Origin: Acholoe squamosa
Taxonomy: Eukaryota; Annelida; Polychaeta; Phyllodocida; Polynoidae
Assembly (NCBI GenBank): GCA_949317995.1
Contig: OX439038.1
Location: 67,525,659-67,589,658, forward strand
Length of the DNA stretch: 64,000 bases
Reading direction: 5' to 3'
The first letter of the stretch is position 1, and every line of letters starts with the position of its first letter. The notes below the pieces were generated by a model. It was not told the DNA's origin. It searched no databases and worked only from the letters and a program-made list of their open reading frames with translations. Below, piece after piece: positions 36,016 to 52,405 of the stretch. Both the position numbers and the translations under genes were made by a program.

Positions 36016-36018
<3 letters not shown>

Positions 36019-36062
36019 TAGTATATACATGCAAACTGAGCGCAATGGATTAGCTACTAACT

Positions 36063-36385
36063 AGGTCATGACCTACTGGTAGACCGGAAGTGACCTAGTT
36101 TCAGCCAATCAGAGGGCTGGATTTGACAGGAAGTGACGTCATAAGGTCATGACCTAGTTTTTTCGACCAATCAGAGAGCTGGATTTCATTTGACCTAGTG
36201 ACCTGACCTAGTTACATAAATTAAAAGAATTGTGCAATACCTAGAGCTGACCTACTTGCAAACCGGAAGTGACCTACTAACCTACTTGCAAAAACGTATG
36301 ACCTACGTATGAGGGTGCATTGCGCAATGCTTGTAAGAATTTACACAATGTTCTGATGCAATACTTTTATGGATTTACGCAATAC
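36063..36385 (+). promoter_or_regulatory. Dense transcription-factor-site cluster in left TIR
   Basis: Two AGGTCATGACCT palindromes (36,063-36,074 and 36,144-36,155) are nuclear-receptor inverted repeats with no spacer. Seven more TGACCT half-sites follow up to 36,310. There is a CRE TGACGTCA at 36,134-36,141, two ACCGGAAGTG ETS-type sites, two CCAATCAGAG CCAAT boxes, and C/EBP-like ATTGCGCAAT and ATTGTGCAAT with further TTACNCAAT variants toward 36,380. The right TIR keeps most of them. No TATA box is clear. A promoter/enhancer role is inferred. Confidence 0.55.
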
Positions 36386-36471
36386 TTATGACTCATTTTG
36401 TTATGTCTCTTCATTTCATGCATTAAAATAAAACACAACTCATTTATTTCACATAACAGATTATATTTTTA

Positions 36472-37344
36472 TTAGACACAATATTTACAGATGAAGACAG
36501 ATTTTCCATTTCCGGGGCGTGCACATATACTACAAAAACATTTGTTGTGTGTGAATTTACTTGCTTGATACCAGCTTTGGCCAGTGAGACTAGTTTTCCA
36601 TGTGTTGTGGAAACAATAACTGTTAAGTTTGGCTATGTTAGATATAGCATGCTCGAACAAAGCCTGGGCCAGGAAGTAAGTTTGACTGTTTTTGGGTCCA
36701 GGTAAAAGACCAGATAAAAAACCATCCTTAAAGTTTACCTCAAAGGAGAAATGATTTTTCACTCCAGGTATACTTAAGGCATGAAGTTCCAGAGAGACCT
36801 GCAGACATGTGAAACAAATAGTTTTAGCAATAGCAGATACTTCCAGTTTACAATTACACTGACAAAACACTCCTACTATGGGATTACATTCTAACTCTTG
36901 GAGAGTAAGAGCAAACTTTCTTACACTTCCTAAAGTGTACCTTGTGTAGTGTCTTGGGCAGCCAGGTTCAGTGTGCAATTGATATACTCCTATACACCAA
37001 TCATGCATTATCAAGTTAACTTTTTTCACTCGACAATAGTACATGCAGTTTCTGTAGGCGTCCCAAAAAGCTGAAGAGAAATATTTGTACATTTTAACAC
37101 TAGTTATACAGTGGTCAACAGTGTCTGGTTCAGCTCCTCTAAAATAACCAATGTTTTCTGCAGGTATTATTTCCCAAAAGAAATTCTCTGAACATCCACA
37201 TGCTACAGAACTTATATCATTGTCAGGTGTTATAGAAGAAGCTTGATTATATGAAGCAACACTTTGTAAAACTGGACGCATGTAATAGTCATAAGGTGGA
37301 GTTTCTGTGGTTTGCTCCACAAGCATAGCTTCTAAACTTTCCAT
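36472..37344 (-). CDS. Cys-rich orphan protein of the Polinton (290 aa)
   Basis: Complete ATG-to-TAA frame, last gene of the leftward block, between the 81-bp repeat array and the left TIR. The protein has about 20 cysteines. Pairs such as CGC, YYC, FCQCNC and TICFTC occur in the middle, and the last 22 residues contain CFCSIC and CKYC, a probable zinc-binding knuckle. There is no signal peptide or membrane segment. AATAAA (36,468-36,473, minus strand) overlaps the stop codon and a second AATAAA lies at 36,443-36,448, so the 3' UTR must be very short. I do not recognise a family. The position outside the core genes suggests an accessory, perhaps host-interaction, role, but that is inference. 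Confidence 0.75.
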   Translation of the reverse strand: MESLEAMLVEQTTETPPYDYYMRPVLQSVASYNQASSITPDNDISSVACGCSENFFWEIIPAENIGYFRGAEPDTVDHCITSVKMYKYFSSAFWDAYRNCMYYCRVKKVNLIMHDWCIGVYQLHTEPGCPRHYTRYTLGSVRKFALTLQELECNPIVGVFCQCNCKLEVSAIAKTICFTCLQVSLELHALSIPGVKNHFSFEVNFKDGFLSGLLPGPKNSQTYFLAQALFEHAISNIAKLNSYCFHNTWKTSLTGQSWYQASKFTHNKCFCSICARPGNGKSVFICKYCV

Positions 37345-37609
37345 GTTAAAATGGTTGCTTAAATCTAACCAGATACTAATAATCTGGTGAACGTGACGCT
37401 ATGAGTTAAGAAATCTGGTACCACTTTTTTTCTGTTCCAACTTAATTTCTTCAGCGCCGGATTTTTTATTTTTTGTCGTGAACATGTACAGCGTTCACTT
37501 TTGTGAAAAGTTTTTTTTATTTTTGGGTGATACAGTTCACTTTTCTTACTTTTTTATTAGTTTTTTTTCATGATACAGTACACATTTTTTTACCTTTGTT
37601 TTTTATTTG

Positions 37610-38030
37610 AAAAATGTTCATTTGAACAAAAAATATTTTCCAGTTTAACACTGTTTTCTATGGAAAAAAATGTTCATTTGAACAAATGTTCGTTTGAACA
37701 ATTGTTCAAATGAACATTTTCCATTTTAACACTGTTTTCTATGGGAAAAAATGTTCATTTGAACAAATGTTCGTTTGAACAATTGTTCAAATGAACATTT
37801 TCCATTTTAACACTGTTTTCTATGGGGAAAAATGTTCATTTGAACAAATGTTCGTTTGAACAATTGTTCAAATGAACATTTTCCATTTTAACACTGTTTT
37901 CTATGGGGAAAAAATGTTCATTTGAACAAATGTTCGTTTGAACAATTTTTCAAATGAACATTTTCCATTTTAACACTGTTTTCTATGAAGGAAATTTGTT
38001 CATTTGAACAATTTGTTTAAAATTTTTTTC
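37610..38030. repeat. 81-bp tandem array of palindromic units
   Basis: The word CTGTTTTCTATG recurs at 37,651, 37,732, 37,813, 37,894 and 37,976, a period of 81-82 bases. Each unit carries ATGTTCATTTGAACAAATG, CGTTTGAAC and AATTGTTCAAATGAACAT, which are nested palindromes built on TTCATTTGAACAA. It lies between the orphan gene start and the polymerase stop. The copies are nearly identical, so the array is young or homogenised. Possible roles are origin-like, protein-binding or terminator hairpins; none is proven. Confidence 0.9.
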
Positions 38031-38080
38031 TTTCAACGAAATGTACAACTGGAAGTGAAACTAGAAAAAGAAACCATTTT

Positions 38081-41000
38081 TTATATAGAAAGGGGTAGGG
38101 TGCTTACACCGTCTTCACATACTTGTCTCTTTATGTACTGATAGGTTAGACCTTGTTTCCTTTGAGAGTAAGTCGTAACGCTGTGGTTAACTACTTTAAA
38201 TCCTTTGTTGACTACCGTGACAACATTTTCACTGTCCAGTACTTCTTTGTACTTGTCAGTGGTCAGGGGGTTTTGTTTTTGAATTACACCTTTGCAACTC
38301 ATTTTAACGGGCACATTTACTCCTGTGCCTATGTAACATTTGGAGTTCAAGGCAGTCATTTCGTCACCTTCCCACTCCACTTTGAATAACCCGGGGGTTC
38401 TCTTGTCAAACGCCAGACGGCTCTTACAACATGGTTGAGGCAGCCACAGCTCACCCAATACTTTGGTCTGAACATAGGTCTCTCTGTGGTGACTGTTGTC
38501 ACATGATTCAGAGGGCAACCATTTGTGACGTTCTCTGAAGAAAGCTTCACGTTTTTCAGGAATAATTACGTCTTCTATTTTCTCTGCACTTAAAGCAAAG
38601 TAAAAACTGTCAGTGTCCATTTCACACATTTCAAAATCTTTCTCGTCTATGTATTCAAGGAGAAAGTCGTAATAGAAAGCCAACATTTTAAGTTTGGCAT
38701 ATTGGTATACCATGAACCCTATTTGAACTGGGAGATCGTAGGTGATGGAGGTGGGCAAACAGGACAGTTCTACCGTGTTGTCACTTATGTCTTGCACATC
38801 TTGCACTGACCAGTGCATGGCCAAACGTCTTGCCTTAGAGGGGTGAAGATACTTTGTTTGAACAAAGTTTTGTTTGTTGCATATGGTTTTTCCGTATGAA
38901 CCATTTCCCAAAAGTTTGTACAGATCTGACAAAATCTTACAGTCTATATTTTCGTCGCCCTTCCTCCTAGCTTTGGTTACTTCGTCCATGAAGGGTAAAA
39001 AAGTCTGTTCTGGAGTGTATTCTACGAGAAGGTGTACTGTCGTAACTACCAAACCTTTCTCCAGGTACCACTTCAAGAGAGGAGTTCCCAACAAAATTCC
39101 CTCTGCGTGGTAGCTGCCTATAAGTTGGCGTTGCGGTTGTTTTAGCTTACCTGCTGCTTCCAGGTAACGTTTCATATGTTCACCTACGTCTTTTTTTCCT
39201 ACTAAACAGTTTTTGAAAATAGGTGTCATTTCACTGAATTTTTCTTTCAAGTATTCAGGTGTTTCTATGTCTACCTGGATAAGTCCAAAAGTTGTTCCTT
39301 TAGAAACCCCTCTCAGTATTTCATCCTGACTTTTTCTGCCTTGGCACAACGGTCTTTTAATTTCCCATTCACTTTTTGTTTCTCTGCACAAGTTTTCAGT
39401 TTTTTCTTTCAACCACATACACTCATACTTTTCCTCTACTTGGTAACCTAACGATTGAAGATATAGGGTAGTCAAAATGGTATTTTGGTTTTTTTCTTCT
39501 AACCATGCCTTTCCATTGGGGTCTCTCAAAACTGATTTAGTGAGGTGACATATGTGACCATGCCAGTAGCACCCGTGAAACTGGTATACTTTTTTTGAAG
39601 CTGGATTATAACCGTCCATTTTTATTTTCCTTGAACCCAATACTACTTCCCCGTAGTTGTATTGGTGTAATATCTTGACTTTGTCTGTCACAGTTTTGTA
39701 TCGCAACCATTCTGTGGCTGAGTAGCTAATTTGTTGACTGCAAACAGCTTGAAAATCGTTTTCTTTCCTGCGCACCACATAATAACCTGTGCAGTGCTCT
39801 TCACCCATGCACTTGAGGTACAAGCTGTTAGCATCTACCCCTACTATGTGTCTGCATACTTTGCTTTGTGACCCGTATTTTTTTTGTCTTATTCTTGTTT
39901 CTCCACTTTTGTGATGTCTGTGAAAAATAATAGAGGGACCCCCTACTAAGTTGCGTCTGACCAAGGAGTGAACATCCTTTTCTTTCTCACCAAAAAGAAT
40001 GTAAGGAGTGGCATTAGGTGCAGTGTTGTTGAAAAGAAACTTCAAGGTTAAACCTGGCAAAGTTAAACCGTCTTTGAACATGTCTACCCCACGATCTATA
40101 AAAAATTTTGTGTGCTCGTTTATGGCTAAAACAAAGGGTTTAACATCCAGGTTGTTGTAATATATCAAGTAGTCCTTCATAGTTTTCATTTTGTTTTCTT
40201 TCCAGACCTTTTTACATTCAAGATAATCTTCTTTGCTTATTCCACCACCCGACAAAGAACTGTAGAAGCAGTGGCGTGGAGGAAGAGCTTTGTTGTTCAG
40301 TTTTCTTATGTTGTCCATCCACTCGTAGGGAAAAAAACCTTTTTCAGCTTTCCCTTTTAGAAAGGCTTTCAGGTAGTTTGCGTAGGAATAACCTGGTGCC
40401 AAATAGTTAAACATGTCAAGGAAAAGAAGATGGTCTGTGTACACTGCTATGTACTTGTTGCATTTTTTTATGGTTTTCATTTCTGTTTTGTCTGTGTCTA
40501 TAAAAAAAGAATGAAATTCCTTTTTTATCAAATTAATGTCATACTTTCCAGAGTTGAAACCTAGAACAGGGACTCTTTCTATGTAGGTAAGAAGTTTTTC
40601 CTTCACTTCAAGAACATGGGAGATTTTTTTTGGGGGATTTTTTTTGTTCTTTGCTGGAAAAACTTTGCTAGCTTTATGTTCTAGTTCCTTTTGTTTTTCT
40701 TCTAGAGAGTCTAGTTCGTCTAAAACATCTCTAAAATTCTCTTTCACCTGTTCTCCTATCAACTGCCCCAAGTTGTTTATGTGTTCCAACACATTTTTAA
40801 CCAAAGGATCGTCGTCCCTGTTGGAATTTCTGACAAAACACACTGGTTCTGTATGCCCAGGAAAATCAGAAGCTACACTGGCAGAAAGGGGTATGTGAGT
40901 TTTTTCTATCACAGTGTTAGCATTTTCTGGGGACGAATTTTCAGGTTGGACGAAATAGCTTTCAAAGTCAAAAACAATTTTATAGGGATATATTTTTTTC

Positions 41001-42223
41001 TCATGTGAACAAACTATTCCCAGTTCCTCTAAAACTTGAAAAACTGTTTTGGATGGATTGTATGCTCCACCTTTGTACCTGAAGCTGACTTTGGTGCAAT
41101 CTTTTTTCACCCCATTGTGTTGTTTCAAAAGGAAGCTACGAGTGAAAACTTTATGACACTTTTCACAGGGGTACATTTTACCATACAGTCCCATGTTAGT
41201 TATTAAACTTACATGGTTTCTGTGTAAGTTCAAGTTCATGATTTTTTTGGATGAACACATGTTTGACCTTATAATTTTAGGTCGCCCCTTTCTTTTACCA
41301 AAAGAGGGAAGGTAAAAGATTCTTATGTTAACTTCAAACATTTTTTCTAACCTGTCTAAATCTCTTATGTTAACACCCTCAAAAGTCTCCTTGTTCACCC
41401 CTGGATAGGCTTCAAGGAAAAGCTCTTGAGTTTTTTCTAAAGATTCATACAGGAAGAAAGACAGACATCTAAAGAAACACAAGTTGTCCTTGTACGCCCT
41501 TTTGGTTTTAGGGTCTCTGTGAAAGTGTTGCATTCCTCTTTGTCTTAAACCTGGTGGAACAGTTTTCATTTTACCTAAAAGATATTCTCCTCCCGTAGCC
41601 CTTATCAGTGTGATGTTGGCGTTCACGTTGCCTATTACACTCCATTTAGTAGAGGGTCTTTGAGTGTCTTCTTTAATGTTGTTTTCTATTAAATCTAAAC
41701 ACTCTGCAAAGTCTTTGTCGTCCCTTATAAAAATGTAAGGGTCTTTATGACTTTCACTGTCATAGAACAAAGACGAGTTGTTGGCAGAAGCATGAAAGTA
41801 CATGACTTTCTCTTCTTCTTCTTCCTCCTTAGAGGAAGACAACAACCTTCCAAAAGAGACAGCCACTTTGTAAGCCATAACTTGATTTCTATGAATAGAG
41901 GTAAGCGCCTCTATTACCTGTTTGGCTCCCAAGTCTTTGTTGAAACTTGTCATTCTGACGTTGAAAATGGACTGAAGCTTACCAAGCACAGCCAAACCTG
42001 AAGCTATGGACTTGAAGTTGTCACGGTAACTGCTTTTATGCAAAGAATTTTTTTCTATTTCTTTTGGAAGTTCTAAGCTGTCGGAAAAAGTTTCTCTTCT
42101 ACAAGAATCTGAGTTACATAAAGTTTTTCCACTGTTTTCTACAGTAACCAAACGTGGAGGTCTAGGGGTGTTACACATTGGACAGTTGACGGTGTAAAGT
42201 TGTTTTACCTTTTTGGGCGGCAT
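38081..42223 (-). CDS. polB: Protein-primed family B DNA polymerase with OTU-like N-terminal region
   Basis: 1,380 aa, intact. An N-terminal CPMC...C zinc-binding segment (about 14-41) comes first. Next is an OTU-like region with DNLCFFRCL (about 247-255) and a later His (about 337), then a CEKC...H...C finger (353-376). The 3'-5' exonuclease has DFE (about 419), the NSGKYD motif (about 557) and YNNLDV (about 690). The polymerase has VDANSLY (motif A, about 796), KLLGNGSYG (motif B, about 1,103) and DTDS (motif C, about 1,203). An inserted FHGCYWHGH segment (about 883-890) is typical of polymerases of this group. It replicates the linear element from a protein primer at the TIRs. The start ATG directly follows an A-rich leader. 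The terminal 15 residues have no motif. Length is at the upper end for Polintons because of the N-terminal fusion. Confidence 0.97.
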   Translation of the reverse strand: MPPKKVKQLYTVNCPMCNTPRPPRLVTVENSGKTLCNSDSCRRETFSDSLELPKEIEKNSLHKSSYRDNFKSIASGLAVLGKLQSIFNVRMTSFNKDLGAKQVIEALTSIHRNQVMAYKVAVSFGRLLSSSKEEEEEEKVMYFHASANNSSLFYDSESHKDPYIFIRDDKDFAECLDLIENNIKEDTQRPSTKWSVIGNVNANITLIRATGGEYLLGKMKTVPPGLRQRGMQHFHRDPKTKRAYKDNLCFFRCLSFFLYESLEKTQELFLEAYPGVNKETFEGVNIRDLDRLEKMFEVNIRIFYLPSFGKRKGRPKIIRSNMCSSKKIMNLNLHRNHVSLITNMGLYGKMYPCEKCHKVFTRSFLLKQHNGVKKDCTKVSFRYKGGAYNPSKTVFQVLEELGIVCSHEKKIYPYKIVFDFESYFVQPENSSPENANTVIEKTHIPLSASVASDFPGHTEPVCFVRNSNRDDDPLVKNVLEHINNLGQLIGEQVKENFRDVLDELDSLEEKQKELEHKASKVFPAKNKKNPPKKISHVLEVKEKLLTYIERVPVLGFNSGKYDINLIKKEFHSFFIDTDKTEMKTIKKCNKYIAVYTDHLLFLDMFNYLAPGYSYANYLKAFLKGKAEKGFFPYEWMDNIRKLNNKALPPRHCFYSSLSGGGISKEDYLECKKVWKENKMKTMKDYLIYYNNLDVKPFVLAINEHTKFFIDRGVDMFKDGLTLPGLTLKFLFNNTAPNATPYILFGEKEKDVHSLVRRNLVGGPSIIFHRHHKSGETRIRQKKYGSQSKVCRHIVGVDANSLYLKCMGEEHCTGYYVVRRKENDFQAVCSQQISYSATEWLRYKTVTDKVKILHQYNYGEVVLGSRKIKMDGYNPASKKVYQFHGCYWHGHICHLTKSVLRDPNGKAWLEEKNQNTILTTLYLQSLGYQVEEKYECMWLKEKTENLCRETKSEWEIKRPLCQGRKSQDEILRGVSKGTTFGLIQVDIETPEYLKEKFSEMTPIFKNCLVGKKDVGEHMKRYLEAAGKLKQPQRQLIGSYHAEGILLGTPLLKWYLEKGLVVTTVHLLVEYTPEQTFLPFMDEVTKARRKGDENIDCKILSDLYKLLGNGSYGKTICNKQNFVQTKYLHPSKARRLAMHWSVQDVQDISDNTVELSCLPTSITYDLPVQIGFMVYQYAKLKMLAFYYDFLLEYIDEKDFEMCEMDTDSFYFALSAEKIEDVIIPEKREAFFRERHKWLPSESCDNSHHRETYVQTKVLGELWLPQPCCKSRLAFDKRTPGLFKVEWEGDEMTALNSKCYIGTGVNVPVKMSCKGVIQKQNPLTTDKYKEVLDSENVVTVVNKGFKVVNHSVTTYSQRKQGLTYQYIKRQVCEDGVSTLPLSI

Positions 42224-42453
42224 TTTTTTTTAAGGTTTCTTTTTCTTGTTTCACTTTATGTTCTATATACAAACTTATAACTAAAACCTAACCTAAGTAT
42301 ACATGGAGTACATATGGAACTTAAACCTACGCTGGGCTATGTTGACTAAAAACGGAGTACATCTAAATCTAACTACAAATTAGCTGACATACATGATAAT
42401 GTAAAAGCACTGAACAAGGAGCTGTTGACCAGACACTATACAAAGTTGACCAC

Positions 42454-43857
42454 TTACCCAGAGTAGAAATCGGTCGTTTCGTCTAGGAAGGGACCAACTC
42501 GTGATTTTATGTCCTCCAGAATGAAGGGGGACACAGTGTGTCCGCAGTGTGTGGCTGAGGGGGGCATTCTGAAGCTGGAAGACACCGAGGCATTCATTTC
42601 CTCCACGTAGCTGGTTGTTCCTATGTGAACTTTAGGAGTTCCCTTGTACAAGTTTACCAGGACCATAGCCCGGCCTCCACTGGGGTCGGTGCAGTCTTGG
42701 TTCAAGGACAACAAAAGATTATCCACCTTCCTCTCTCCAAGGGCAGCTAGGCGGTGTAACTCCTTGTACTTTCCTAGGATGCACTCTATCTGGTCCACTA
42801 AGTTCCTGAATTCACGCGCCTCTAGGTTCAAGCACCGCTCGTAAGGTTTGTCCAGGTAGGTTCTCAAGCATACTCCCCTGATGCTAGGTTCCCTGTATAT
42901 TTCTATGCAGGCGTTGTTATCCCCTTCCGGATAAAAAACTTGGTTGGGGGCAGGTGACTTTTCTTGGAAACCAAATCGAGCAGGCCACTTTTTTACCACC
43001 AAAGGCACTGACCTAAAGCCCACAAGCTTGCTGGAAGAACTGGGGGCAGTGCCCTCCCCAAACTTTTGCCTGTGTGACTTGTCTTTAGGAGAAGGAACAC
43101 CTGGGACAGAACCAATTGGCTCGGCACCATAGGATGAAGTCGCTGAGGAAACTGAAGCAGGGGTAGAGACAGGGGTTTTCTTGTGGTAGGCGCGCTTCTG
43201 TCTTTTTTTCTTAGGCTCCCCTTCTCTCTCACTGGAACAGTTTCTTTTTTCCGGCGGGCTTTTAAGAAGCAGCTCCTCTACCGGAACCGGGAGAGAGTAC
43301 AGAGGAGAAGGGCCGGTTAAATCTATAACCTCTACCTGCGAATACCCCCCGCGGTGAGCAGGTGAAGGTGTCCCTTGTGTTAAGTCCACCACTTCTATGG
43401 GTTTAACTGCCGGTGATGAGGTTGTAAGGTCTATAACCTTTATTGGACTGACCTGGGGAGAAGGTTCCTCCGGAGTCACGGGTGAGTAAGAGGCGGACGT
43501 AGGTGCTTCAGTGGGGGGTTGGTAGTTCAAAGGTGCCGGGGGATTGATGTATTCCCTGATGTCAAAATCGCCGTCGCCAGCTTCCTGAGGAGAGCGATCC
43601 CGGACGCGATCCAGGAAATCAGTGATTTCGCCATGAAGAGCTGCAAGAGCGGCTTCCTGTTCTCCTGCATCAGGCACTTCAGTTGGAAGCCGAGCAGGAG
43701 TTGCAGGTGGTTTATCAGGGGAGGCTGGAGAGGTAGGAGGAGGGGCGATGCCCGACGCCTTTTCCTCTGTCTGTTTAGAAGTAGTAAAAGTTAGTGGAGC
43801 CAGTTTTTTAGCTCCTCCTCTCCTGACACTAAGTCCCGTCTTCATGCGACCAGGCAT
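42454..43857 (-). CDS. Multi-SIM nuclear protein with possible PC4-like C-terminal domain
   Basis: 467 aa, intact, first gene of the leftward block. Residues 1-135 are Pro/Ser/Thr-rich. Three spaced SUMO-interaction-type motifs follow, each hydrophobic-hydrophobic-D-L-T preceded by P/Q-x-x-V: VIDLT at 141, VVDLT at 156 and VIDLT at 177. A basic KKKRQKR nuclear signal lies at 216-222. Residues 315-360 read as strands ending in an Arg-x-Tyr element and a LNLEAREFRNLV helix, resembling the PC4 ssDNA-binding fold; a related strand-rich half follows to the end. Expected site: nucleus, possibly SUMO-rich bodies. The stop codon overlaps a splice-donor consensus (GGTAAGT, 42,458-42,452), so spliced extension is possible. 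SIMs are seen directly; PC4 kinship is inference. Confidence 0.85.
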   Translation of the reverse strand: MPGRMKTGLSVRRGGAKKLAPLTFTTSKQTEEKASGIAPPPTSPASPDKPPATPARLPTEVPDAGEQEAALAALHGEITDFLDRVRDRSPQEAGDGDFDIREYINPPAPLNYQPPTEAPTSASYSPVTPEEPSPQVSPIKVIDLTTSSPAVKPIEVVDLTQGTPSPAHRGGYSQVEVIDLTGPSPLYSLPVPVEELLLKSPPEKRNCSSEREGEPKKKRQKRAYHKKTPVSTPASVSSATSSYGAEPIGSVPGVPSPKDKSHRQKFGEGTAPSSSSKLVGFRSVPLVVKKWPARFGFQEKSPAPNQVFYPEGDNNACIEIYREPSIRGVCLRTYLDKPYERCLNLEAREFRNLVDQIECILGKYKELHRLAALGERKVDNLLLSLNQDCTDPSGGRAMVLVNLYKGTPKVHIGTTSYVEEMNASVSSSFRMPPSATHCGHTVSPFILEDIKSRVGPFLDETTDFYSG

Positions 43858-43939
43858 TGTTCTCCTTGAAGATGAAAGGGTGGCAGGGCTGGAAGGTGCA
43901 GGAGCAGGACGGCGAACAGCAGATTATTGTAGATGGTAC
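43858..43939. promoter_or_regulatory. Putative divergent promoter between the two gene blocks
   Basis: The leftward block starts at 43,857 and the rightward block begins shortly after, so initiation in both directions is expected here. The stretch is GC-richer and G-biased (GGGTGGCAGGGCTGG) and has no TATA or CCAAT box that I can see. The call rests on gene layout. Confidence 0.35.
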
Positions 43940-44308
43940 ATGGGATATTACAACGTAGTGGACCATTGTGAAATTCCTCCAGAACAGTGGAAAGTTGATA
44001 CTTTGTTCGTCAACCTGGCAGACAAGTTCGAAATGCTTGACTGGAGGAAACTGGGAACTCAACTTGGATTGAGCGACCACGAGCTTAACCTGATATCCAC
44101 CCCTGTTCCAGGGAAAAAAGGTGTCACAAATCCTGTATTCGAAGTTCTGATGGTTTGGAAATATAGAGAAATATCTCATCCAAGCTGCCTAATAGCCAGT
44201 CTATACAACATGGGACTTTCTGATGTAGCTCTTTACGTGGAAGGTTTGAACAAGGGTTCTACTGGTTTAAAAGAGGACGAGGTTGCTCCTTTGGTCACTT
44301 TGGTTTAA
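43940..44308 (+). CDS. Death-domain protein
   Basis: 122 aa from the ATG at 43,940. An in-frame ATG at 43,844 would add 32 residues but overlaps the divergent gene, so the later start is preferred. Residues 18-103 have the six-helix death-domain pattern: LFVNLADKF, then DWRKLGTQLGLS with the conserved Trp (35), HELNLIS, an FEVLMVWKYR helix with a second Trp (73), CLIASLYNMGLSDVALYV. Death domains mediate homotypic contacts in apoptosis and innate-immune adaptor complexes. A lone death domain without enzyme or receptor parts could act as a decoy or adaptor. It is the first gene of the capsid block, 13 bases before the ATPase. Assignment to the fold is strong by pattern; the role is inferred. 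Confidence 0.8.
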   Translation: MGYYNVVDHCEIPPEQWKVDTLFVNLADKFEMLDWRKLGTQLGLSDHELNLISTPVPGKKGVTNPVFEVLMVWKYREISHPSCLIASLYNMGLSDVALYVEGLNKGSTGLKEDEVAPLVTLV

Positions 44309-44321
44309 GATATCGTCCAAC

Positions 44322-45011
44322 ATGGATCACAAGGAAAAGGAGATCATTTTTGACCCACGTCTACAAAGCCCCTTCACAATGATCATAGCTGGACCTACTT
44401 CTTGTGGGAAAAGTCAACTTGTTTTCAAGTTGATTAAAGGTGTAGACGAGCTTGTTACTCCAAAAATACACGACATATACTACTGCTACAGTCAATGGCA
44501 AGATGGATTCGACGAAATGGCGAAGTTGGGGGTTAAGTTTAACAAAGGTCTTCTTTCAGAAAACTTTTTGTTCGAGGATGAAAGAGACGTGACTAAACAT
44601 GGACTGGTCGTAATAGACGATCTCATGGATCCCGAGTACGTTCCCACCATAATGAAACTTTTCACTGTGGGCTCTCACCATCGCAGTTTAAGTGTAATTT
44701 TTGTTACTCAAAACTTGTTTTTCAACAATCCTGCCTTCAGAACCTTGAGCTTAAATGCACACTACCTAGTTGTTTTTAAAAACCTTAGAGACATGAGTCA
44801 GATAGGGCACATAAGCAAACAGGCCTTTCCAGGACAGAAATCCTTTTTGACGGAGGTATATAACTCAGAAACCAAAGAGAAACATTCATACATCCTATTG
44901 GACTTTAAGCAGAGCACACCTAACGAGCTTAGGGTAAGAAACAGCATAACAACTCCTTGGAACACCTTGGTTTTCATTCCTCAAGCTTCAGCTTCGAAAA
45001 GAAAAAGATAG
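44322..45011 (+). CDS. DNA-packaging ATPase (FtsK/HerA type)
   Basis: 229 aa from the ATG at 44,322 (AACATGG context; the frame is open for 13 codons upstream). Walker A GPTSCGKS at 24-31 follows a hydrophobic strand. Walker B LVVIDD is at 95-100, and a FVTQN sensor-like strand comes later. The A32-like packaging ATPases of Polintons, adenovirus-like elements and large DNA viruses have this size and motif order. It would translocate the genome into the preformed capsid. The C-terminus ends in a basic KRKR. Two bases separate its stop from the next ATG. Confidence 0.95.
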   Translation: MDHKEKEIIFDPRLQSPFTMIIAGPTSCGKSQLVFKLIKGVDELVTPKIHDIYYCYSQWQDGFDEMAKLGVKFNKGLLSENFLFEDERDVTKHGLVVIDDLMDPEYVPTIMKLFTVGSHHRSLSVIFVTQNLFFNNPAFRTLSLNAHYLVVFKNLRDMSQIGHISKQAFPGQKSFLTEVYNSETKEKHSYILLDFKQSTPNELRVRNSITTPWNTLVFIPQASASKRKR

Positions 45012-45012
45012 A

Positions 45013-45378
45013 ATGGTGACCAAAAGATCTCCTTCTGGAGGAAAATTTAAAACAATAAGGAAACATTACCACTTGTTGAAACACATATCCAAGTGTTCCT
45101 CGGCAGAGTGTTCCCACATTATCAAAGGTCTCAGCGATGAGGTCATTAGGTTGATGAGTCAAATTTGCGTCAACGTAATGAACAAAAACCTGTTGCGTAA
45201 CGAGTCCGACGCAGTCAAACGTTTATCACCCTACAAGAAAGAACTCAAGTCAGTCACAAGGCACAAGGCTACCGTTAAGCAGAAGAGGAAAACCTTTGAG
45301 CAAAAGGGTGGATTTTTGGGAACCATTTTGGGCCTCGCCTTACCCCTGATAACAGGTCTCATAGGAGCACGTCGATAA
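45013..45378 (+). CDS. Small basic virion-type protein with hydrophobic tail
   Basis: 121 aa. A Lys/Arg-rich body with RKHYHLLKHI, a helical central part and a KQKRKTFEQK basic run precedes GGFLGTILGLALPLITGLIG, a hydrophobic/amphipathic tail. Polintons of animals often carry a small protein of this layout next to the ATPase. QKGG/F fits the adenain-type cleavage rule (x-x-G-G before a residue), so the protease could release the tail in the manner of adenovirus pVI. That function is inferred; the composition is observed. Confidence 0.8.
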   Translation: MVTKRSPSGGKFKTIRKHYHLLKHISKCSSAECSHIIKGLSDEVIRLMSQICVNVMNKNLLRNESDAVKRLSPYKKELKSVTRHKATVKQKRKTFEQKGGFLGTILGLALPLITGLIGARR

Positions 45379-45384
45379 AAAATC

Positions 45385-46341
45385 ATGTCTTATTCAAGGA
45401 TGGCCCTCGTAAGGGCGGATCTTGTTCCCCGAGAAAAAAAACCTTCTTTTGTTAGTCCTTCCTCTCCTCCCCAGCCTGGACCTAGTGTTCAAGACCAGTA
45501 CTACAGCACTCAACTTTTAAGAGAAGGTTTAACTCCTGATTCCAGCCTGGTTCAAGTCCTGAACCACCTTCAAAGTAAAGCACATGAGGTGCTTAACTCT
45601 CCTAACCTCAAACTGAAGGAAAAGTTAAGGCAGTACAATCAACTTATGATAAAGTCGGGAATTTTAACTAAAAAAGCCAAGGCCTTAGGACAACGTAGGG
45701 AAGGTCCCTATCCTGGTCGAGCAGTAGGACAAGGCCCTGCAGGAGCAGCAGCAGCAGCAGCTGGGGGTGTAAACAATTCTTTAGAAGACACCGACGACGG
45801 CGACGACGATGATGACCACACTTTCACAGAGACTAGAGACGATCCACCACTTCCTGACGATTCAGACGGAGACAGTGTAGACGAGTTCAAAGGGGAGGAA
45901 GGCTTTAAACCTCGTGCAAGAGACAACACAGAGGGTATGGACGCCGACATAAAAGAAAGAATACCTGCAAGTTACAGAACGACTGCTAAAAATCTCTACA
46001 GAGAATTATCTCGTCACGGAAGTGAAATTTTGAATTGGAACAGAGACGGAGAAATATATGTTAACGGGGAACGTGTGCCTGGAACTGACATAACAGATTT
46101 GTTAGCTTTTGCTGCCCGACCAAAGTCTTTGAAAAAGGACCAACCTAAAGGAAGCCAGGTTTTCATGAGAGCAGTTAAAAGGCTGAACCCCACCTCAAAA
46201 TTTGTCAAAAACAAGTCGGCTTTTGCAGGGCACAGTCCTTCCTTTGCTGCCAGTCCCTTGAAAAGAGCTTCCCCTATTAAGAAGAGGAAAGTAAGTCAAA
46301 AAGGAACTGGACGTAAGTTTATATGGCGCACAAGGCTTTGA
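45385..46341 (+). CDS. Conserved Polinton protein, Ala-tract and acidic middle (318 aa)
   Basis: The N-terminal half is helical with an LNHLQSKAHEVL stretch, then an Ala7 run (about 124-130) and an Asp-rich segment. A C-terminal domain begins at about residue 190 with RIPASYRTTAKNLYREL and contains ILNWNRDGEIYVNG followed by VPGTDITDLLAFA. This last domain recurs in animal Polintons upstream of the integrase, but I know no biochemical role. A PIKKRKV nuclear signal lies near the end. The last 19 bases overlap the integrase start in another frame, so the two are tightly coupled. Confidence 0.8.
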   Translation: MSYSRMALVRADLVPREKKPSFVSPSSPPQPGPSVQDQYYSTQLLREGLTPDSSLVQVLNHLQSKAHEVLNSPNLKLKEKLRQYNQLMIKSGILTKKAKALGQRREGPYPGRAVGQGPAGAAAAAAGGVNNSLEDTDDGDDDDDHTFTETRDDPPLPDDSDGDSVDEFKGEEGFKPRARDNTEGMDADIKERIPASYRTTAKNLYRELSRHGSEILNWNRDGEIYVNGERVPGTDITDLLAFAARPKSLKKDQPKGSQVFMRAVKRLNPTSKFVKNKSAFAGHSPSFAASPLKRASPIKKRKVSQKGTGRKFIWRTRL

Positions 46342-47402
46342 AAAAAGATGTCCTCAGGTTTTACACAGATCCTAAACAACCTGGAAGTTTCACCAGCGTA
46401 TCTAAACTTCAACGTCATCACTTCAAGAAAACAAAGAAAAAAAACATAGAACAAGCTTTGGAAGATGTAGACGCTTACACCAGACACAAACCTTACAAGA
46501 GAAGATTTCCAAGAAGAAAAACACAAACATGGGGGATAGACAAACAGTGGCAACTTGACCTCATAGACATGCGAGAATTTTCAAAGGAAAACAAAGGATA
46601 CCAGTACATTCTAGCGGGAATAGATGTTTTTTCAAGGTATGGTTTTGGACAACCTGTGAAAAGTAAGAGAGCTGATGACGTGACAGAGGCTTTCAAAAAA
46701 ATGAGCAAAGAAAGAAAACCTCAACAAATTCAAACTGACAAGGGCAAAGAGTTTGTCAACAAAATTTTCAAAAAACACTGTGAAGATCAAAAAATCAATT
46801 TTTTCACAGGAGAGAACGACGACGTGAAGTGTGCCTTAGCCGAAAGATTCAACTCTACTTTACAAGGAAAAATGTGGAGATGTTTCTCTCATTTCAATAA
46901 CTACAAATGGGTTGACTTGCTGCCCGACTTGGTTAAGTCCTACAATTTGACTTACCACAAATCCTTAGGAGCTGCCCCTTCAGACATAAATAAAGACAAC
47001 TCTGAAGTCTTGTTCTACAGGTTGTACGATCAACCTCAAAAGAAAAAAGTTCCTGTCCTTCAGTTGAAGAGAAAAAATCAAGTGCGAATGTTGAAAACAA
47101 AGAAAACATTTAACAGAGGGTACGAACCTAACTGGACTGAGGAAATATACACAGTCGACAACATTTCGCCCAAAGGGTACCACCTAAAAGATCTCCTTGG
47201 AGAAGAGATAAAAGGAAGCTTCTACGAACCTGAAGTTCAGAAGGTGCAAGTCCGTCACGGAAGACGCTACAAGATAGAAAAAATAGTAAAATACAGAGGA
47301 AAAGGCAAGAAAAGAGAAGCCTTGATCAAGTGGAAGGGTTATGGAGACAAGTTTAACTCTTGGGAACCTGTCAAGAACATAAACAAATGGCGTTTACCTT
47401 AA
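46323..47402 (+). CDS. int: Retroviral-type integrase with C-terminal chromodomain
   Basis: 359 aa. The RNase H-like core has catalytic D79 (QLDLID), D139 (QTDKG) and E174 (LAERFNSTL), a DD34E spacing, with the IDVFSRYGF strand between. A C-terminal chromodomain (about 315-357) shows YKIEKIVKYR, a LIKWKGYGDKFNSWEP core and a closing helix. It inserts the element DNA into host chromatin, making 6-bp target duplications in this group. The chromodomain probably guides it to methylated histones. All three acidic residues are intact. No canonical HHCC zinc domain is obvious at the N-terminus. The 3' end overlaps the next gene by 16 bases. Confidence 0.97.
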   Translation: MAHKALKKDVLRFYTDPKQPGSFTSVSKLQRHHFKKTKKKNIEQALEDVDAYTRHKPYKRRFPRRKTQTWGIDKQWQLDLIDMREFSKENKGYQYILAGIDVFSRYGFGQPVKSKRADDVTEAFKKMSKERKPQQIQTDKGKEFVNKIFKKHCEDQKINFFTGENDDVKCALAERFNSTLQGKMWRCFSHFNNYKWVDLLPDLVKSYNLTYHKSLGAAPSDINKDNSEVLFYRLYDQPQKKKVPVLQLKRKNQVRMLKTKKTFNRGYEPNWTEEIYTVDNISPKGYHLKDLLGEEIKGSFYEPEVQKVQVRHGRRYKIEKIVKYRGKGKKREALIKWKGYGDKFNSWEPVKNINKWRLP

Positions 47403-48724
47403 CTTTACCTAGTAACTCATCTATGAACGTTTTTCCTGACAACACTTTAACTAGTTACAATACAATTTTGGCAGAATACATTAACTCTCCTACTCAGTTA
47501 GAGTGTGCTCTTCAAGAAATAACCTGTCCTACCACGTGGTACAACGTCAAAGAAGAACCCATTCTCTTGGTACAGGGAGAAAACGACCTGACAAACAACC
47601 TCCGCTCTGTAGTAGCTTTATTGAACAAACGCAGAAGAGAATTTTTTCCTCTGGAAAAACCAGGAGCCCATAGTGTCTTCAGTAGAGCTTCAAGCTCTAC
47701 ATCAAATTTATCAGCCCAATCTGCTTTGAAGAGAGGAGTAAAAATAACAAAAAACCTACGTCATGTCAACCCTGTGGAATCGACTGAAACCATTCCTCCT
47801 GCTGGTCCTGCAAGTGAAAGTCCACCAACTCCTGCTGCTGCGACTGAGACGCCATCTGGAGGATTCACTTCTAACCAACCCACGCCAGAGAAGGAGGAAA
47901 AGGAAGAGGAGGAGGCTGAGGGGGAGCGTGACACGGCAGGCAGAGAGAAAAGGGAAATATCGTCGGCTGTGGCTGAAGTGATGTCTATGGATGACAGGGA
48001 AAAAAGGTCTCTTTCTTTTTTTGAAGAAAAGGCCGTCTTCACAGACTCTGCTAATGTTTCTCCGCTCTCTCCCAGTCAGTTACAGGCTGTGAAAATATGT
48101 ACACGCTTCAAGGAAATTAGCAGATACCTGTCTAAGTATTACTTCAAGGAAGGTAGTATCTACAATATGTTTGCCTTAGAAGGTGTGAACCTGGAAAGCA
48201 ACTCAGAGTTGATAGGATACTTGAACAGGACCATAAATAAACTACAGAGCATGTTGGTGAGAAAACTAAGAAACTACAGGAAAAACAACAAAGCCACCGT
48301 GTTTCACTACAACAAATACACAATGAAAAGTGTAGTTTCCTTGCCTCCTGGTGTGGTCATGCAACTCCCAGAAAACTTAGGGAAACAATTAGGTTTTGAC
48401 GGAAGTGTTTTCCTAAGTGGAAAAACACAAAGCCCCTACGTGGTAGACCTTCAGTACAAAAGTCGATGTGCTTTCGTGTACTCTGACATAGTCAAGCACA
48501 GTCTTGTGGGTGATTCTAAAGCACCCCTTCTGAGGCAAATCAACATAAATCGCTACAACGGTGACATGCAGACCATAAGTTTCCAGAACTTGATATATCT
48601 GCCAGTCACTAAAACCACCTTCAGACAGATAGGGATATACTTAAGAGACAAGACTGGGGAACCTATACCATTTGAAAGCGGATCAGTGTCGGTGGTACTT
48701 GCCTTCAGACCTCTTCAAGGATAG
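47387..48724 (+). CDS. Penton-like minor capsid protein
   Basis: 445 aa from the ATG at 47,387 (CAAATGG context; the frame is open 9 codons further up). The N-terminal segment with LPSNSSMNVFPDNT, CALQEI and TWYNV is the hallmark of the Polinton penton-like family. The C-terminal part has YSDIVKHSLVGD, PLLRQI, YLPVTK and a closing IRDKTGEPIPFESG-like strand. Between them lies a long low-complexity insert (about 95-215), Pro/Glu-rich and acidic, then a KREISS/KRSLSF region. The start overlaps the integrase end by 16 bases. It should form capsid vertices. The insert looks surface-exposed and lineage-specific. In this copy one residue before FESG is I-P and the loop is L-R-D-K-T-G. Confidence 0.85.
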   Translation: MAFTLTLPSNSSMNVFPDNTLTSYNTILAEYINSPTQLECALQEITCPTTWYNVKEEPILLVQGENDLTNNLRSVVALLNKRRREFFPLEKPGAHSVFSRASSSTSNLSAQSALKRGVKITKNLRHVNPVESTETIPPAGPASESPPTPAAATETPSGGFTSNQPTPEKEEKEEEEAEGERDTAGREKREISSAVAEVMSMDDREKRSLSFFEEKAVFTDSANVSPLSPSQLQAVKICTRFKEISRYLSKYYFKEGSIYNMFALEGVNLESNSELIGYLNRTINKLQSMLVRKLRNYRKNNKATVFHYNKYTMKSVVSLPPGVVMQLPENLGKQLGFDGSVFLSGKTQSPYVVDLQYKSRCAFVYSDIVKHSLVGDSKAPLLRQININRYNGDMQTISFQNLIYLPVTKTTFRQIGIYLRDKTGEPIPFESGSVSVVLAFRPLQG

Positions 48725-48736
48725 GAGTATATTACC

Positions 48737-49207
48737 ATGCTTTACTACTATGGAACACCTCCATACCTGGCCCCTAGGGGTCAGTACGCTGAATACTACA
48801 GAAAATCACAGTTTGGGAACGGTGCTTTACCAGCGTACGGTGGCAGGGGCAGACAAAGAGGGCACGGACTTGGTTCGTTAATAGGTGGTTTACTGAGAGG
48901 AGCTGTTCCCCTCTTAAGTAAAATAGGACGCTCAGCTGCCAAATCTGCAGGCAAAGCCTTGCTTACTACAGGAGCTGGAGTCTTGTCCGACGTGGTAACA
49001 GGAAAAGGCTTCAAGAAAAGTGTAGTTAGGAGAAGTAAAGCTACAGGGAAGAACTTACTCAAAAGGGCTGCTTCTTCTGCTCAAGGATACATAAAAGGTA
49101 CATCTGAACCTCCTCCAGTCAAACGACGAGCAACCGGCAAGCGCGGAGGACGTAAGGGGCAACGCGGCAGAGGCAGAGGACAAGCTAGAGGAAGGACCTT
49201 GTTCTAG
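48737..49207 (+). CDS. pVI/pX-like minor virion protein
   Basis: 156 aa. A Tyr-rich N-terminus (MLYYYGTPPYLAPRG) is followed by HGLGSLIGGLLRGAVPLLSK, an amphipathic Gly/Leu-rich segment. Then comes an Ala/Lys region and a strongly basic RGGRKGQRGRGRG-type tail suited to DNA condensation. The pattern is typical of the small protein preceding the major capsid gene in Polintons. LIGG/L is a plausible adenain-type cleavage site. It sits 12 bases after the penton-like gene and two bases before the capsid gene. Roles in DNA binding and membrane lysis are inferred by analogy with adenovirus. Confidence 0.8.
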   Translation: MLYYYGTPPYLAPRGQYAEYYRKSQFGNGALPAYGGRGRQRGHGLGSLIGGLLRGAVPLLSKIGRSAAKSAGKALLTTGAGVLSDVVTGKGFKKSVVRRSKATGKNLLKRAASSAQGYIKGTSEPPPVKRRATGKRGGRKGQRGRGRGQARGRTLF

Positions 49208-49209
49208 TC

Positions 49210-50526
49210 ATGAGTCTCCTTCATCCCAAGGGTCAGGTATGTGCAGTAGGTGAACTAGACCTACACGCCTTGCCTGTCACTCAAAAGGACATATTAAAAT
49301 GTCAAAAAATAACCAAAACTACCAACAATGCCCTGACTCCACACACTGAATCATTTGACTTCACCTTCGAACCAAGCAACCTGTACACAGACCTCTCAGA
49401 AACTGAGCTGTACATGGAACTGGAAGCCGTGGCGGCAGACGGAACAACTCACCTTGCCGTAGGCATAGAAGCTGCTCCAGTCAACAACTTGGCACACGCT
49501 CTCTTTGCTTCCTGCCAGTTGCTGATAAATGGGGAGAAAGTCACCGGCAACAATGAAGACTATGGTCTCAAGGCCTACATTTTGGACACAATTTGTTGCA
49601 ACAAAGAAGACAAAGAGACTCGGTTGAAAGGGTGTCAAAAGTACATGAAAGACACCTGTGGTCACATGGAAGCCAGAGCGGGCGAAAATGCTGGATGGAC
49701 GGCACGGAGAGCAGAGTTCAGTGCCCGCAACAAGCATGCCTTAGTAATGAAGCCACACCTGGATTTAATTAAACAGTGCAAGGTGCTGCCTCCGAACTGT
49801 GAAATCAAGTTCATATTCGAAAAAAATCAGCCCAATTACTACATGATGCAAGCAGCCGATCAAAACTACTGGGTCAAAATCACCAAAGCTGAAATGACAC
49901 TTCTCCAAAAATGTGTCGACGACGAGGTGGTGAAAACTCACGTCAGCAGTGTCAGGAATCCACATTGGGGCCCTTTCAACTATCACATAGCCAGGTGTAA
50001 AGTAACTAAACACACTTTGGACGGTGGCTCACAAGACTACAGTTGGACTCAACCTGACACTACTCAGATCCCCACCAGGATAGTCTTGTGTATGATAAAG
50101 GAAACAGCAGCTGCTGGGACTAAGACAGAAAATCCTTTCAACTGCAGGCATTTCAACGTGAAGGAAATATGCGTGAGATATGACGATCAAAAGTTTGAGT
50201 TGAAGACCGACTTCGAAACAGGCAACTGCATCAGAGCCTACAGTCAAATGTTCATAGACAGTGGGCTGTCGGCTTTGGGGCAAGACTGTGGCATAACTTT
50301 GGAAGATTTCAAAGATGGATATTCCTTCTTTGTTTTCGACCTCACCCCAGACAGAGCACCTGAAGACAGTCGTATAAATCTCATCAAGCAAGGAAAGCTG
50401 GGCATTTCCCTTAGGTTTGCCGCCCCGACTACTCACGCCATATCTGCCGTCTTGTGTTCCTTCTACGACAACAACATCCAACTAACGGCTGACTGTCTTC
50501 CTGTCACAGACTACCACATGAACTGA
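49210..50526 (+). CDS. mcp: Major capsid protein (double jelly-roll, hexon-like)
   Basis: 438 aa, intact and of normal family length. Recognisable Polinton MCP features are the SFDFTFEPSNLYTDLSETEL opening strands, the LINGEKV turn and the LPPNCEIKF strand. The characteristic C-terminal stretch GYSFFVFDLTPDRAPEDS leads to LIKQGKLGISLRFA and a final strand with FYDNNIQL. Trimers of this protein would build the icosahedral shell. It lies between the pVI-like gene and the protease. No frameshift or missing strand is visible. Confidence 0.95.
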   Translation: MSLLHPKGQVCAVGELDLHALPVTQKDILKCQKITKTTNNALTPHTESFDFTFEPSNLYTDLSETELYMELEAVAADGTTHLAVGIEAAPVNNLAHALFASCQLLINGEKVTGNNEDYGLKAYILDTICCNKEDKETRLKGCQKYMKDTCGHMEARAGENAGWTARRAEFSARNKHALVMKPHLDLIKQCKVLPPNCEIKFIFEKNQPNYYMMQAADQNYWVKITKAEMTLLQKCVDDEVVKTHVSSVRNPHWGPFNYHIARCKVTKHTLDGGSQDYSWTQPDTTQIPTRIVLCMIKETAAAGTKTENPFNCRHFNVKEICVRYDDQKFELKTDFETGNCIRAYSQMFIDSGLSALGQDCGITLEDFKDGYSFFVFDLTPDRAPEDSRINLIKQGKLGISLRFAAPTTHAISAVLCSFYDNNIQLTADCLPVTDYHMN

Positions 50527-50534
50527 GAAAAAAA

Positions 50535-50999
50535 ATGAGAACTTCAGACATAACAGGTGCACTGGGAAACCATCCACACACAAGACGTTTCTACCTGGGA
50601 ACTTTTGCCAGTAATCAATGTCCTAAAAAACCAATTCCCTCTACATGTTTCGTCAGTAACACAGATCCAAGCTCTAAACCTGGTCAGCACTGGGTGGCAT
50701 TTTACGTTTCTCATAACGGGAATGTATTCTACTTTGATCCCTATGGCTTACCTCCGTTTACTATATATCACCAGAGGTTCATGCAAAAGTCGTCAGATGG
50801 TCACGGGTCGTTCAGCAGAAAACAAGTGCAAAACTTTTACGCTAAAACGTGTGGAGCCCACTGCATTAACTTCCTCATAGAAACATGTCGGACCAAGGAT
50901 CCACACCACACTGTGAAAAGGTTTTCTCAGGTCCCCTTCAACTTAATGGACAAAATAGTCAGGCCCTTCCTGAGAAAAAGAGAGAAGAAGAGGCAATGA
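50535..50999 (+). CDS. Adenain-like cysteine protease (C5 type)
   Basis: 154 aa. The catalytic triad is visible: H52 in GQHWVAFY, D68 in YFDPYG and C106 in KTCGAHC, with Gln97/99 just before it for the oxyanion hole. Length and order fit adenovirus-type maturation proteases, which cleave capsid precursors after x-G-G or x-G-x-G. Candidate substrates nearby are the 45,013 and 48,737 proteins. A basic tail (RKREKKRQ) may bind DNA, which activates adenain. The stop overlaps the next ATG. Confidence 0.95.
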   Translation: MRTSDITGALGNHPHTRRFYLGTFASNQCPKKPIPSTCFVSNTDPSSKPGQHWVAFYVSHNGNVFYFDPYGLPPFTIYHQRFMQKSSDGHGSFSRKQVQNFYAKTCGAHCINFLIETCRTKDPHHTVKRFSQVPFNLMDKIVRPFLRKREKKRQ

Positions 51000-51310
51000 A
51001 TTTCGAGATGAGTCCAGAAGAAGTAGCAGTCAAAGCAGACGTGAGCAATCTTTTGGTGAAAGGAAAAGTTAAACGTGAACTGGACGTGATAGACGGGCTT
51101 CAGAGCACGGCGGAAGTAATAGACAAGATTCTCATCATCATGGCCGAGTTAATGGACAAAGTGGTAGCCCTGGAGGAGAACGACATAGGAAGAAAGGCCT
51201 TGAAGGATTTAATGGAGAGAATGCGGGCCTTAGAGGACCGTAGTCAAAGTCCTACTCCAGCCAAGACCGGGTGCAGTTGGTACTGCAACAAGAATTCATT
51301 TTCCATATAA
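50996..51310 (+). CDS. Small helical protein at end of capsid block
   Basis: 104 aa from the ATG at 50,996, which overlaps the protease stop (ATGA). The frame is open further up inside the protease gene, but the overlap start is the natural one. The sequence is strongly helical and probably coiled coil (VIDKILIIMAELMDKVVALEE, ALKDLMERMRALED) and ends in CSWYCNKNSFSI with two cysteines. No family recognised. An AATAAA follows 77 bases later, so it is the last gene of the block. Confidence 0.65.
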   Translation: MNFEMSPEEVAVKADVSNLLVKGKVKRELDVIDGLQSTAEVIDKILIIMAELMDKVVALEENDIGRKALKDLMERMRALEDRSQSPTPAKTGCSWYCNKNSFSI

Positions 51311-51386
51311 TATCCATGTACTCTGCTTGCAAAGCATATCTGATTATAATGATTCATACCTAGCATGTACTCTGATAGGAAGAAAA

Positions 51387-51392
51387 AATAAA
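51387..51392 (+). terminator. Polyadenylation signal of the rightward block
   Basis: AATAAA in an A-rich context 77 bases after the last stop codon and before the right TIR. It is the only clear signal for the whole rightward block. Confidence 0.6.
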
Positions 51393-51554
51393 AAGATTGA
51401 ATTAAAAAACCGAGTTGTGTCTTTGTTGCATTTAATCTCATATCAAAATAGTGAGTCATAAGTATTGCGTAAATTCATAGGAACATTGCATCAGAAAATG
51501 AGTCATGGTTATTGTGTAATTTCTTTCAAGGATTGCACAATACACCCTCATACG

Positions 51555-51815
51555 TAGGTCATACGTTTTTGCAAGTAGGTTAGTAGGTCACTTCCGGTTT
51601 GTAAGTAGGTCAGCTCTAGGTATTGCACAATTCTTTTAATTTATGCATCTAGGTCAGGTCACTAGGTCAAATGGAATCCAGCTCTCTGATTGGTCGAAAA
51701 AACTAGGTCATAACCTTATGACGTCACTTCCTGTCAAATCCAGCCCTCTGATTGGTTAAAACTAGGTCACTTCCGGTCTACCAGTAGGTCATGACCTAGT
51801 TAGTAGCTAATCCAT
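51555..51815 (-). promoter_or_regulatory. Transcription-factor-site cluster in right TIR
   Basis: Counterpart of the left cluster. It has about nine AGGTCA-type half-sites, one intact AGGTCATGACCT palindrome (51,787-51,798), TGACGTCA near 51,720, two CACTTCCGGT ETS-type sites and two CTGATTGG CCAAT boxes. The second palindrome has lost one base (AGGTCATAACCT), and the central ATTGCGCAAT has changed. Confidence 0.5.
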
Positions 51816-51841
51816 TGCGCTCAGTTTGCATGTATATACTA

Positions 51842-51844
<3 letters not shown>

Positions 51845-51876: not shown

Positions 51877-52405
51877 GCATCAGGTGACAAACCAGACCTG
51901 TGGATTGCCAAGTCTTAATCTCACAAAGCATATAATAATGGGTTGAGATGACAAACCAGATCTGCAGATTGTCCAGGTTTTATCTCACTAATATAGTGGG
52001 TTTAGATGACAAACCAGACCTGCAGATTGTCCAGGCTTTATCTCACAAAGCCTATATAATGGCCTCAGATGACAAACCAGACCTGCAGATTGTCCAGTCA
52101 TTATCTCACAAAGCCTATTTAACGGCCTCAGATGACAAACCAGACCTGCAGATTGTCCAGTCTTTATCTCACAAACCCTATTTAGTGGGCTGAGATGACA
52201 AACCAGACCTGCAGATTGTCCAATATTTAACCCACAAAGCCTATATAGTGGATTTAGATGGCACCAGACCTGCAGATTGCCCAGTCTTCGTCCCACATCT
52301 CAACCCACTATGTAGGTTTGTCATCTAAACCACTATAATAGGCTTTGTGAGATAAAGACTGGGCAATCTGTCGGATGGGTTTGTCATCTAATACCAGTAT
52401 ATATA
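51876..52405. repeat. Subterminal tandem array of right TIR
   Basis: Seven direct units of about 54-66 bp built on GACAAACCAGACCTGCAGAT and CTTTATCTCACAAAGCC. After about 52,300 there are two more units in the opposite orientation. The left TIR has only two to three units. Confidence 0.85.

Follow-up and report, generated by a model that had tools for sequence, protein, structure and literature searches.

A two-death-domain gene carried by at least four Polinton lineages in the genome of the annelid Acholoe squamosa

The window, i.e., the whole 64,000-nucleotide stretch of Acholoe squamosa DNA that we analyzed, contains a Polinton of 15,827 bp (36017..51843) that begins with AGTAGT, ends with ACTACT, and sits in a (TA)n tract. 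Its ends at 36017 and 51843 were set by comparing this copy with two sister copies, and they are formed by a pair of terminal inverted repeats, the left one at 36017..36405 (plus strand) and the right one at 51439..51843 (minus strand). Both sister copies are flanked by perfect 6-bp target duplications (TTTGAG and GACGAC), while the (TA)n tract makes the target duplication of the window copy itself uninformative. The terminal inverted repeats, the 6-bp target-site duplications of the two sister copies, a retroviral-type integrase, and the gene order bear out the sequence-only reading made earlier of this DNA, which had called the element a Polinton. Long imperfect inverted repeats were also found outside the Polinton (31427-32701 with 54783-56239, and 35668-35887 with 52315-52552), and the Polinton seems to have landed inside a different repeat-rich element that has inverted arms. 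The outermost pair, 31427-32701 and 54783-56239, was ruled out as the ends of the Polinton, as homology to the sister copies begins at 36017. To the right of the Polinton, an open reading frame (ORF) of 717 amino acids (aa) (56954-59107, minus strand) reads by eye as a LINE-type reverse transcriptase.

On the minus strand, the element encodes a 1380-aa PolB-like ORF (38081..42223), named by its position and by PolB-like motifs that we read by eye; searches of Pfam, PDB, and PHROGs gave it no match to a polymerase. Residues 880-953 of this ORF form a Vsr-like nuclease stretch of the mismatch endonuclease type (PDB Vsr, E 0.0025; phrog_13076 endonuclease, E 3.8e-4). Tandem-like repeats, seen as overlapping matches with copy L071, lie between the PolB-like ORF and a 290-aa ORF (37588-38030), and their unit number seemingly varies between copies. 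A divergently transcribed 467-aa ORF without a Pfam match occupies 42454..43857 (minus strand). On the plus strand, the death-domain ORF (43940..44308) is followed by a packaging-ATPase-like gene of the A32/IVa2 type (44322..45011; Pox_A32, E 0.0029; Adeno_IVa2, E 0.0052), an integrase gene with a chromodomain (46323..47402; rve, 41.8 bits, E 1.4e-10; Chromo, 35.6 bits, E 9e-9), a putative minor capsid (penton-like) ORF named by position alone and without a Pfam match (47387..48724), a putative major capsid (hexon-like) gene (49210..50526), and a putative adenovirus-type cysteine protease gene (50535..50999; Peptidase_C5, 19.9 bits). The ATPase and the protease of this copy both score below their Pfam cutoffs, which is 21.3 bits for Peptidase_C5; the protease homolog of lineage A, one of the three further lineages described below, exceeds it with 26.6 bits. 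The hexon-like gene was likewise named by position; searches of Pfam and PHROGs and a profile search against PDB gave it no credible match. It is common to all four lineages; its homologs were found by tblastn, and the proteins of the window lineage and of lineages A to C align with 21-22% identity.

The ORF at 43940..44308 holds a complete death domain in an open frame upstream of the ATPase ORF. It matched the Pfam Death family (PF00531) with 32.6 bits against a cutoff of 22.6, and a structural search found a six-helix death-fold bundle with FADD as the best fold match, so that the assignment to the death domains made in the sequence-only reading held up in both profile and fold. An untrimmed structure model was set aside (pLDDT 45; best Foldseek E 0.59). 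In a profile search run with the four lineages, FADD was again the nearest (E 1.1e-6), followed by ankyrin, THOC1, PIDD, and RIPK1. Pfam gave no match to the death-effector domain (DED) for the window ORF and the two-domain protein of copy L087 (E up to 10) or for the proteins of lineages A to C (E up to 1).

The same reading had described a stand-alone single death domain encoded by the first rightward gene, ahead of the ATPase, and here the comparison between copies led to a different picture. The distance from the left end to the gene is 7,923 bp in the window versus 10,219-10,571 bp in 15 other listed copies. The window and the C2 copy (L071, L087) are colinear, small indels apart, except for about 2.5 kb (L087 3877-6393) that has no counterpart in the window, where the junction of this internal deletion falls at 43922..43923. 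The missing segment holds an ORF without a Pfam match (L087 4208-4864), a DUF5662-like gene (5100-5723; 20.7 bits, E 3.5e-4, below the cutoff of 27), together with the 5′ half of the death-domain gene itself. The L087 version of this gene encodes a protein of 209 aa in which Pfam recognized two Death stretches (51.2 bits, E 1.4e-13) and no other domain. The ATPase of L087 is split into two reading pieces, so L087 was used as a comparison copy and not as an intact element. All 33 other anchored copies with a full second death domain (DD2; sampling described below) have sequence of the first death domain (DD1) directly upstream of it, covering the whole 261 nt in 18 copies, starting from nt 3 in one, and running to the edge of the fetched stretch in 14; the 2.5-kb deletion was found in none of them. 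Together with the break in colinearity against L087, this makes the single-domain form private to the window copy among the copies examined. By this comparison with L087 and the 33 anchored copies, the single-domain reading of the gene was ruled out, and the window feature is best read as DD2, the 3′ remnant of a Polinton gene for a two-death-domain protein. Its isolation and its place at the head of the rightward genes are due to the deletion; the other copies that we read carry it as the second half of the gene, which in L087 follows the DUF5662-like gene. Judged from its sequence, with one domain left and the native upstream region lost, the window copy is probably nonfunctional.

There are at least 150 copies of the gene of the window-lineage element in the genome. 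A protein search of the genome, in which 150 of 1382 candidates were scored, gave 150 matches to residues 1-122 with 98-100% identity and no stop, and at least 56 copies, including the window, were identical by hand count among these best 150 of 1382. As this sample was selected by similarity, a second one not chosen by the death domain was drawn with the left end of the element (36017-36460), for which 40 of 1457 candidates were scored, all with 100% identity. Sixteen of these 40 anchored copies (the window included) also occurred in the 150-copy list at the proper distance. The remaining 24 were read at the predicted place: 18 showed the full gene stretch, one (L047) was cut by the stretch edge, and five showed no match. 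Of these five, two (L051 and L066) had different parts of the element at that place, which indicates another distance from the left end; in the other three (L056, L059, and L061), no part of it was seen. The gene is thus at the expected place in 35 of the 40 copies, 34 of which have a whole DD2 without indels, two of them with a stop.

Among these 34 copies, DD2 carries 43 variants, 22 nonsynonymous (two of them stops) and 21 synonymous as counted per site and not per branch, where a nonsynonymous fraction of 0.75 is expected (P 6.5e-4). Variants present in more than one copy were 5 nonsynonymous to 10 synonymous (P 8e-4), and singletons, at 17 to 11, were close to neutral (P 0.07), with no significant difference between shared and singleton variants (Fisher P 0.12). 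DD1, compared in 19 copies (18 anchored copies and L087), had seven nonsynonymous and four synonymous variants, all singletons, and showed no sign of constraint within the window lineage.

To find death domains across the genome, we used a Pfam Death search in which 150 of 1880 candidates were scored. Most of these best 150 could be grouped by eye by their almost equal scores, and open frames of about 200-240 aa were common among them; the groups are rough, being defined by profile range and not by a tree (range 6-82 in 48 of the 150 by hand count). We opened 10 loci from multi-copy groups (L009-L018) and 10 other high-scoring loci (L019-L028). All ten loci from the multi-copy groups carry hexon and protease homologs of the window element (20-30% identity) and match the two-death-domain and DUF5662 proteins; by their matches, they were sorted into lineages A (L009-L012), B (L013-L015), and C (L016-L018). 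The other ten had no match to the window Polinton proteins at E 1e-4, and L027 among them was recognized with lineage A to C protein queries as a damaged lineage-B copy. In each of the six loci for which ORFs were listed (L009, L010, L013, L015, L016, and L018), there is a two-domain ORF of 200-206 aa, and Pfam found two Death stretches in each of three lineage A to C proteins (E 3e-15 to 1e-16). The tblastn search with the single window domain as the query did not reach lineages A to C at E 1e-4. The full two-domain proteins of the window lineage and lineages A to C, on the other hand, align along their length with 25-28% identity and an hhalign probability of 96 over 173 columns (E 4.5e-9 for this single comparison). 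A further Pfam family, bDLD3 (bacterial death-like domain 3; cutoff 27.1), matched the two-death-domain proteins of L010, L015, and L016, with 29.0 bits for lineage B, 33.5 bits for lineage C, and 25.8 bits, just below the cutoff, for lineage A. A decayed relative of the Polinton DD2 with an internal stop was seen outside the opened lineages at L038 (G000:C9:36645449-36645661).

The six listed loci share the gene order hexon, protease, membrane-type ORF, DUF5662 gene, two-death-domain gene, and dUTPase-like ORFs, and five of them also have a coiled-coil-type ORF. Two dUTPase-like genes in a row were seen downstream of the two-death-domain gene at L010:5382-6464 (lineage A; 69.9 and 145.3 bits in Pfam) and, by reading, at L016:5293-6618 (lineage C). 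A DUF5662-like gene lies directly before the two-death-domain gene in all four lineages (L087:5100-5723, L010:3291-3935, L015:5848-6489, and L016:3494-4141), scoring 70.4 bits in Pfam in lineage A, with 26-31% identity between the proteins of the window lineage and lineages A to C. An HD pair conserved in lineages A to C, presumably part of a metal site, reads HN in the window lineage, a change that might mean loss of that site. The DUF5662 and two-death-domain pair stands before the ATPase in the window lineage and after the capsid genes in lineages A to C; its location thus varies, although the two genes stay together. In all, the two-death-domain gene with its DUF5662 neighbor has been retained by at least four Polinton lineages in this genome, three of them found by searching beyond the window lineage.

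Between lineages A to C, the NG86 dN/dS of the two-death-domain gene was 0.14 (A-B), 0.08 (A-C), and 0.17 (B-C). The corresponding values were 0.23, 0.09, and 0.15 for the hexon, 0.13, 0.22, and 0.14 for the protease, 0.32, 0.20, and 0.33 for DUF5662, and 0.42, 0.36, and 0.38 for the membrane-type ORF. These figures are rough because dS between lineages A to C is near saturation (0.8-2.2), YN00 was usable for one pair, and pairs with the window lineage were left out, as no dS value for the two-death-domain gene could be used there. Roughly, then, the gene is under constraint about as strong as that on the capsid and protease between these three lineages. As the sequence-only reading held, it is not known to belong to the core Polinton gene set, but in this genome, it occurs in four divergent lineages and is constrained between three of them much as the capsid and protease are.

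To trace its origin, 16 of the loci found with the Death profile were compared, including two Polinton fragments. L023 (C17:20.73 Mb) was the nearest overall to the Polinton domains among the compared non-Polinton loci. Like the Polinton gene, it has two death domains in the same order, but they lie in separate exons with a 299-bp GT-AG intron between them that keeps the frame; another exon probably follows downstream, and the 10 kb read contained no match to a Polinton gene. It is probably a host gene. Each of its death domains best matches the corresponding Polinton domain of lineages A to C, with 38% identity between its DD1 and that of lineage B (E 4e-14). The E-values from comparing single domains with one another, which involved about two dozen sequences, were used for ranking only. 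In a phylogeny with death-domain loci of the same genome, DD1 of L023 grouped with DD1 of lineages A to C (UFBoot 94), and the DD1 group including the window lineage had a UFBoot of 81; the DD2 tree had values of 30-47. This pattern points to an animal two-death-domain gene as the probable ancestor of the Polinton gene, and a single capture of the two-domain gene would fit. Since DD1 of the window lineage falls outside the group of L023 and lineages A to C, two captures, or passage from a Polinton to the host, would also be possible.

Death domains are contact modules of cell-suicide and immune signaling, and death-fold proteins without another domain act by contact with other death domains. 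As the Polinton protein has no other recognized domain, we propose that it would act by homotypic contact. Its two linked death domains may be incorporated into, or cap, the death-domain assemblies of the host (FADD-, MyD88/Pelle-, or PIDD-like), which would then be kept from recruiting caspases or kinases, and death or NF-κB signaling would be delayed while the element replicates. Interference with host death or innate signaling, as suggested in the sequence-only reading, is plausible, and we think that a bivalent decoy against host death or NF-κB signaling is the most likely role, an agonist or an internal scaffold being less likely. To the fold family, two-domain architecture, location inside Polintons, copy number, and constraint between three lineages that we observed, this adds host capture, binding to host death domains, and an inhibitory sign, which we infer. 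Taken as a whole, the explanation (a two-death-domain Polinton gene of probable animal descent, in at least four lineages, with a DUF5662 neighbor and a bivalent decoy mechanism) appears to us reasonably probable. A broader version, which we put forward tentatively and would not yet bet on, makes it a standard gene for an entire branch of animal Polintons, derived from a host two-death-domain gene or itself the source of that gene, and capping host death-domain filaments bivalently. Its coupling to DUF5662 would be long-standing, and it would have passed by exchange or inheritance between lineages that are about 21% identical in their hexon-like proteins.

A death domain may activate or block, and a linked pair may seed or cap, so the protein might instead nucleate host death-domain assemblies and activate NF-κB or caspases, e.g., to start transcription, help release, or kill the cells of competitors. 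Several of its nearest profiles (FADD, ankyrin, THOC1, PIDD, and RIPK1) belong to activators; however, the protein lacks an effector domain, and with at least 150 copies of the gene in the genome, the element would pay a high price for a death trigger unless expression were confined to replication, which leaves agonism quite unlikely in our estimate. A role in the biology of the element itself that no longer touches host signaling, as an assembly scaffold or a co-factor of DNA replication or transcription, would agree with constraint similar to that on the capsid and protease, with the fixed neighborhood of DUF5662 (four lineages) and dUTPases, i.e., nucleotide-metabolism genes (lineages A to C), and with THOC1 among the profile matches, given that the death domain of this THO subunit serves in a nuclear RNA complex. 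We still consider it unlikely, as the closest of the compared non-Polinton loci is a two-death-domain gene and FADD is the best match in both fold and profile. The remnant in the window might also be a functional single-death-domain inhibitor by itself, made by the deletion, with its complete domain, open frame, and place ahead of the ATPase ORF; but with the deletion in 0 of 33 other anchored copies with a full DD2, an internal Met, and the native upstream sequence lost, this is very improbable.

Polintons are regarded as viruses living as transposons, and to our knowledge, little has been described of how they interact with the innate immunity of animals. The conserved two-death-domain protein offers a handle on this interaction, with predicted partners (host death-domain adaptors) and a candidate host relative in the same genome. 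It would show that mobile elements have acquired members of the death-domain family proper, in addition to DED, pyrin, or BIR domains. No relatives outside this genome were found with the window ORF or a lineage-A protein in protein collections, and the death domain, the ATPase, the two-death-domain alignment, the hexon alignment, and one hexon had no match among viral contigs; these collections are presumably poor in animal sequence, so the null results say little about how widespread the gene is. In open full texts, a scope that leaves out the 2021 adintovirus paper (PMC8502044), we found no report of a death-domain protein of a Polinton, adintovirus, or virus, and the co-mentions of Maverick and death domain, judged by listing, were all unrelated. 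Cell-death regulators in animal mobile elements are already known from passages of two papers, one on mammal-associated adintoviruses with anti-apoptotic homologs (PMC11071296) and one on Burro retrotransposons with BIR and BCL2-like domains (PMC6431247). Those are likewise mobile or viral animal elements carrying such regulators, but of other protein families, and the word "death" is absent from the main text of these papers (PMC11071296 and PMC6431247). As far as the open literature shows, Polintons with a conserved two-death-domain gene appear not to have been described before.

Compared with known Polintons/Mavericks, the element has the same terminal repeats, 6-bp duplications, integrase, putative adenovirus-type protease, and gene order, but adds the pair of two-death-domain and DUF5662 genes. 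The host adaptor FADD consists of a DED plus a death domain, whereas the Polinton protein has two death domains and no DED match. The natural comparison is with the viral FLIPs, the tandem death-effector-domain proteins such as MC159, which are found in pox- and herpesviruses. The Polinton genes lie in an animal genome instead, and their protein has two domains that match Pfam Death in place of the two death-effector domains of a viral FLIP; if the proposed role is true, it would be the death-domain counterpart of the viral FLIPs.
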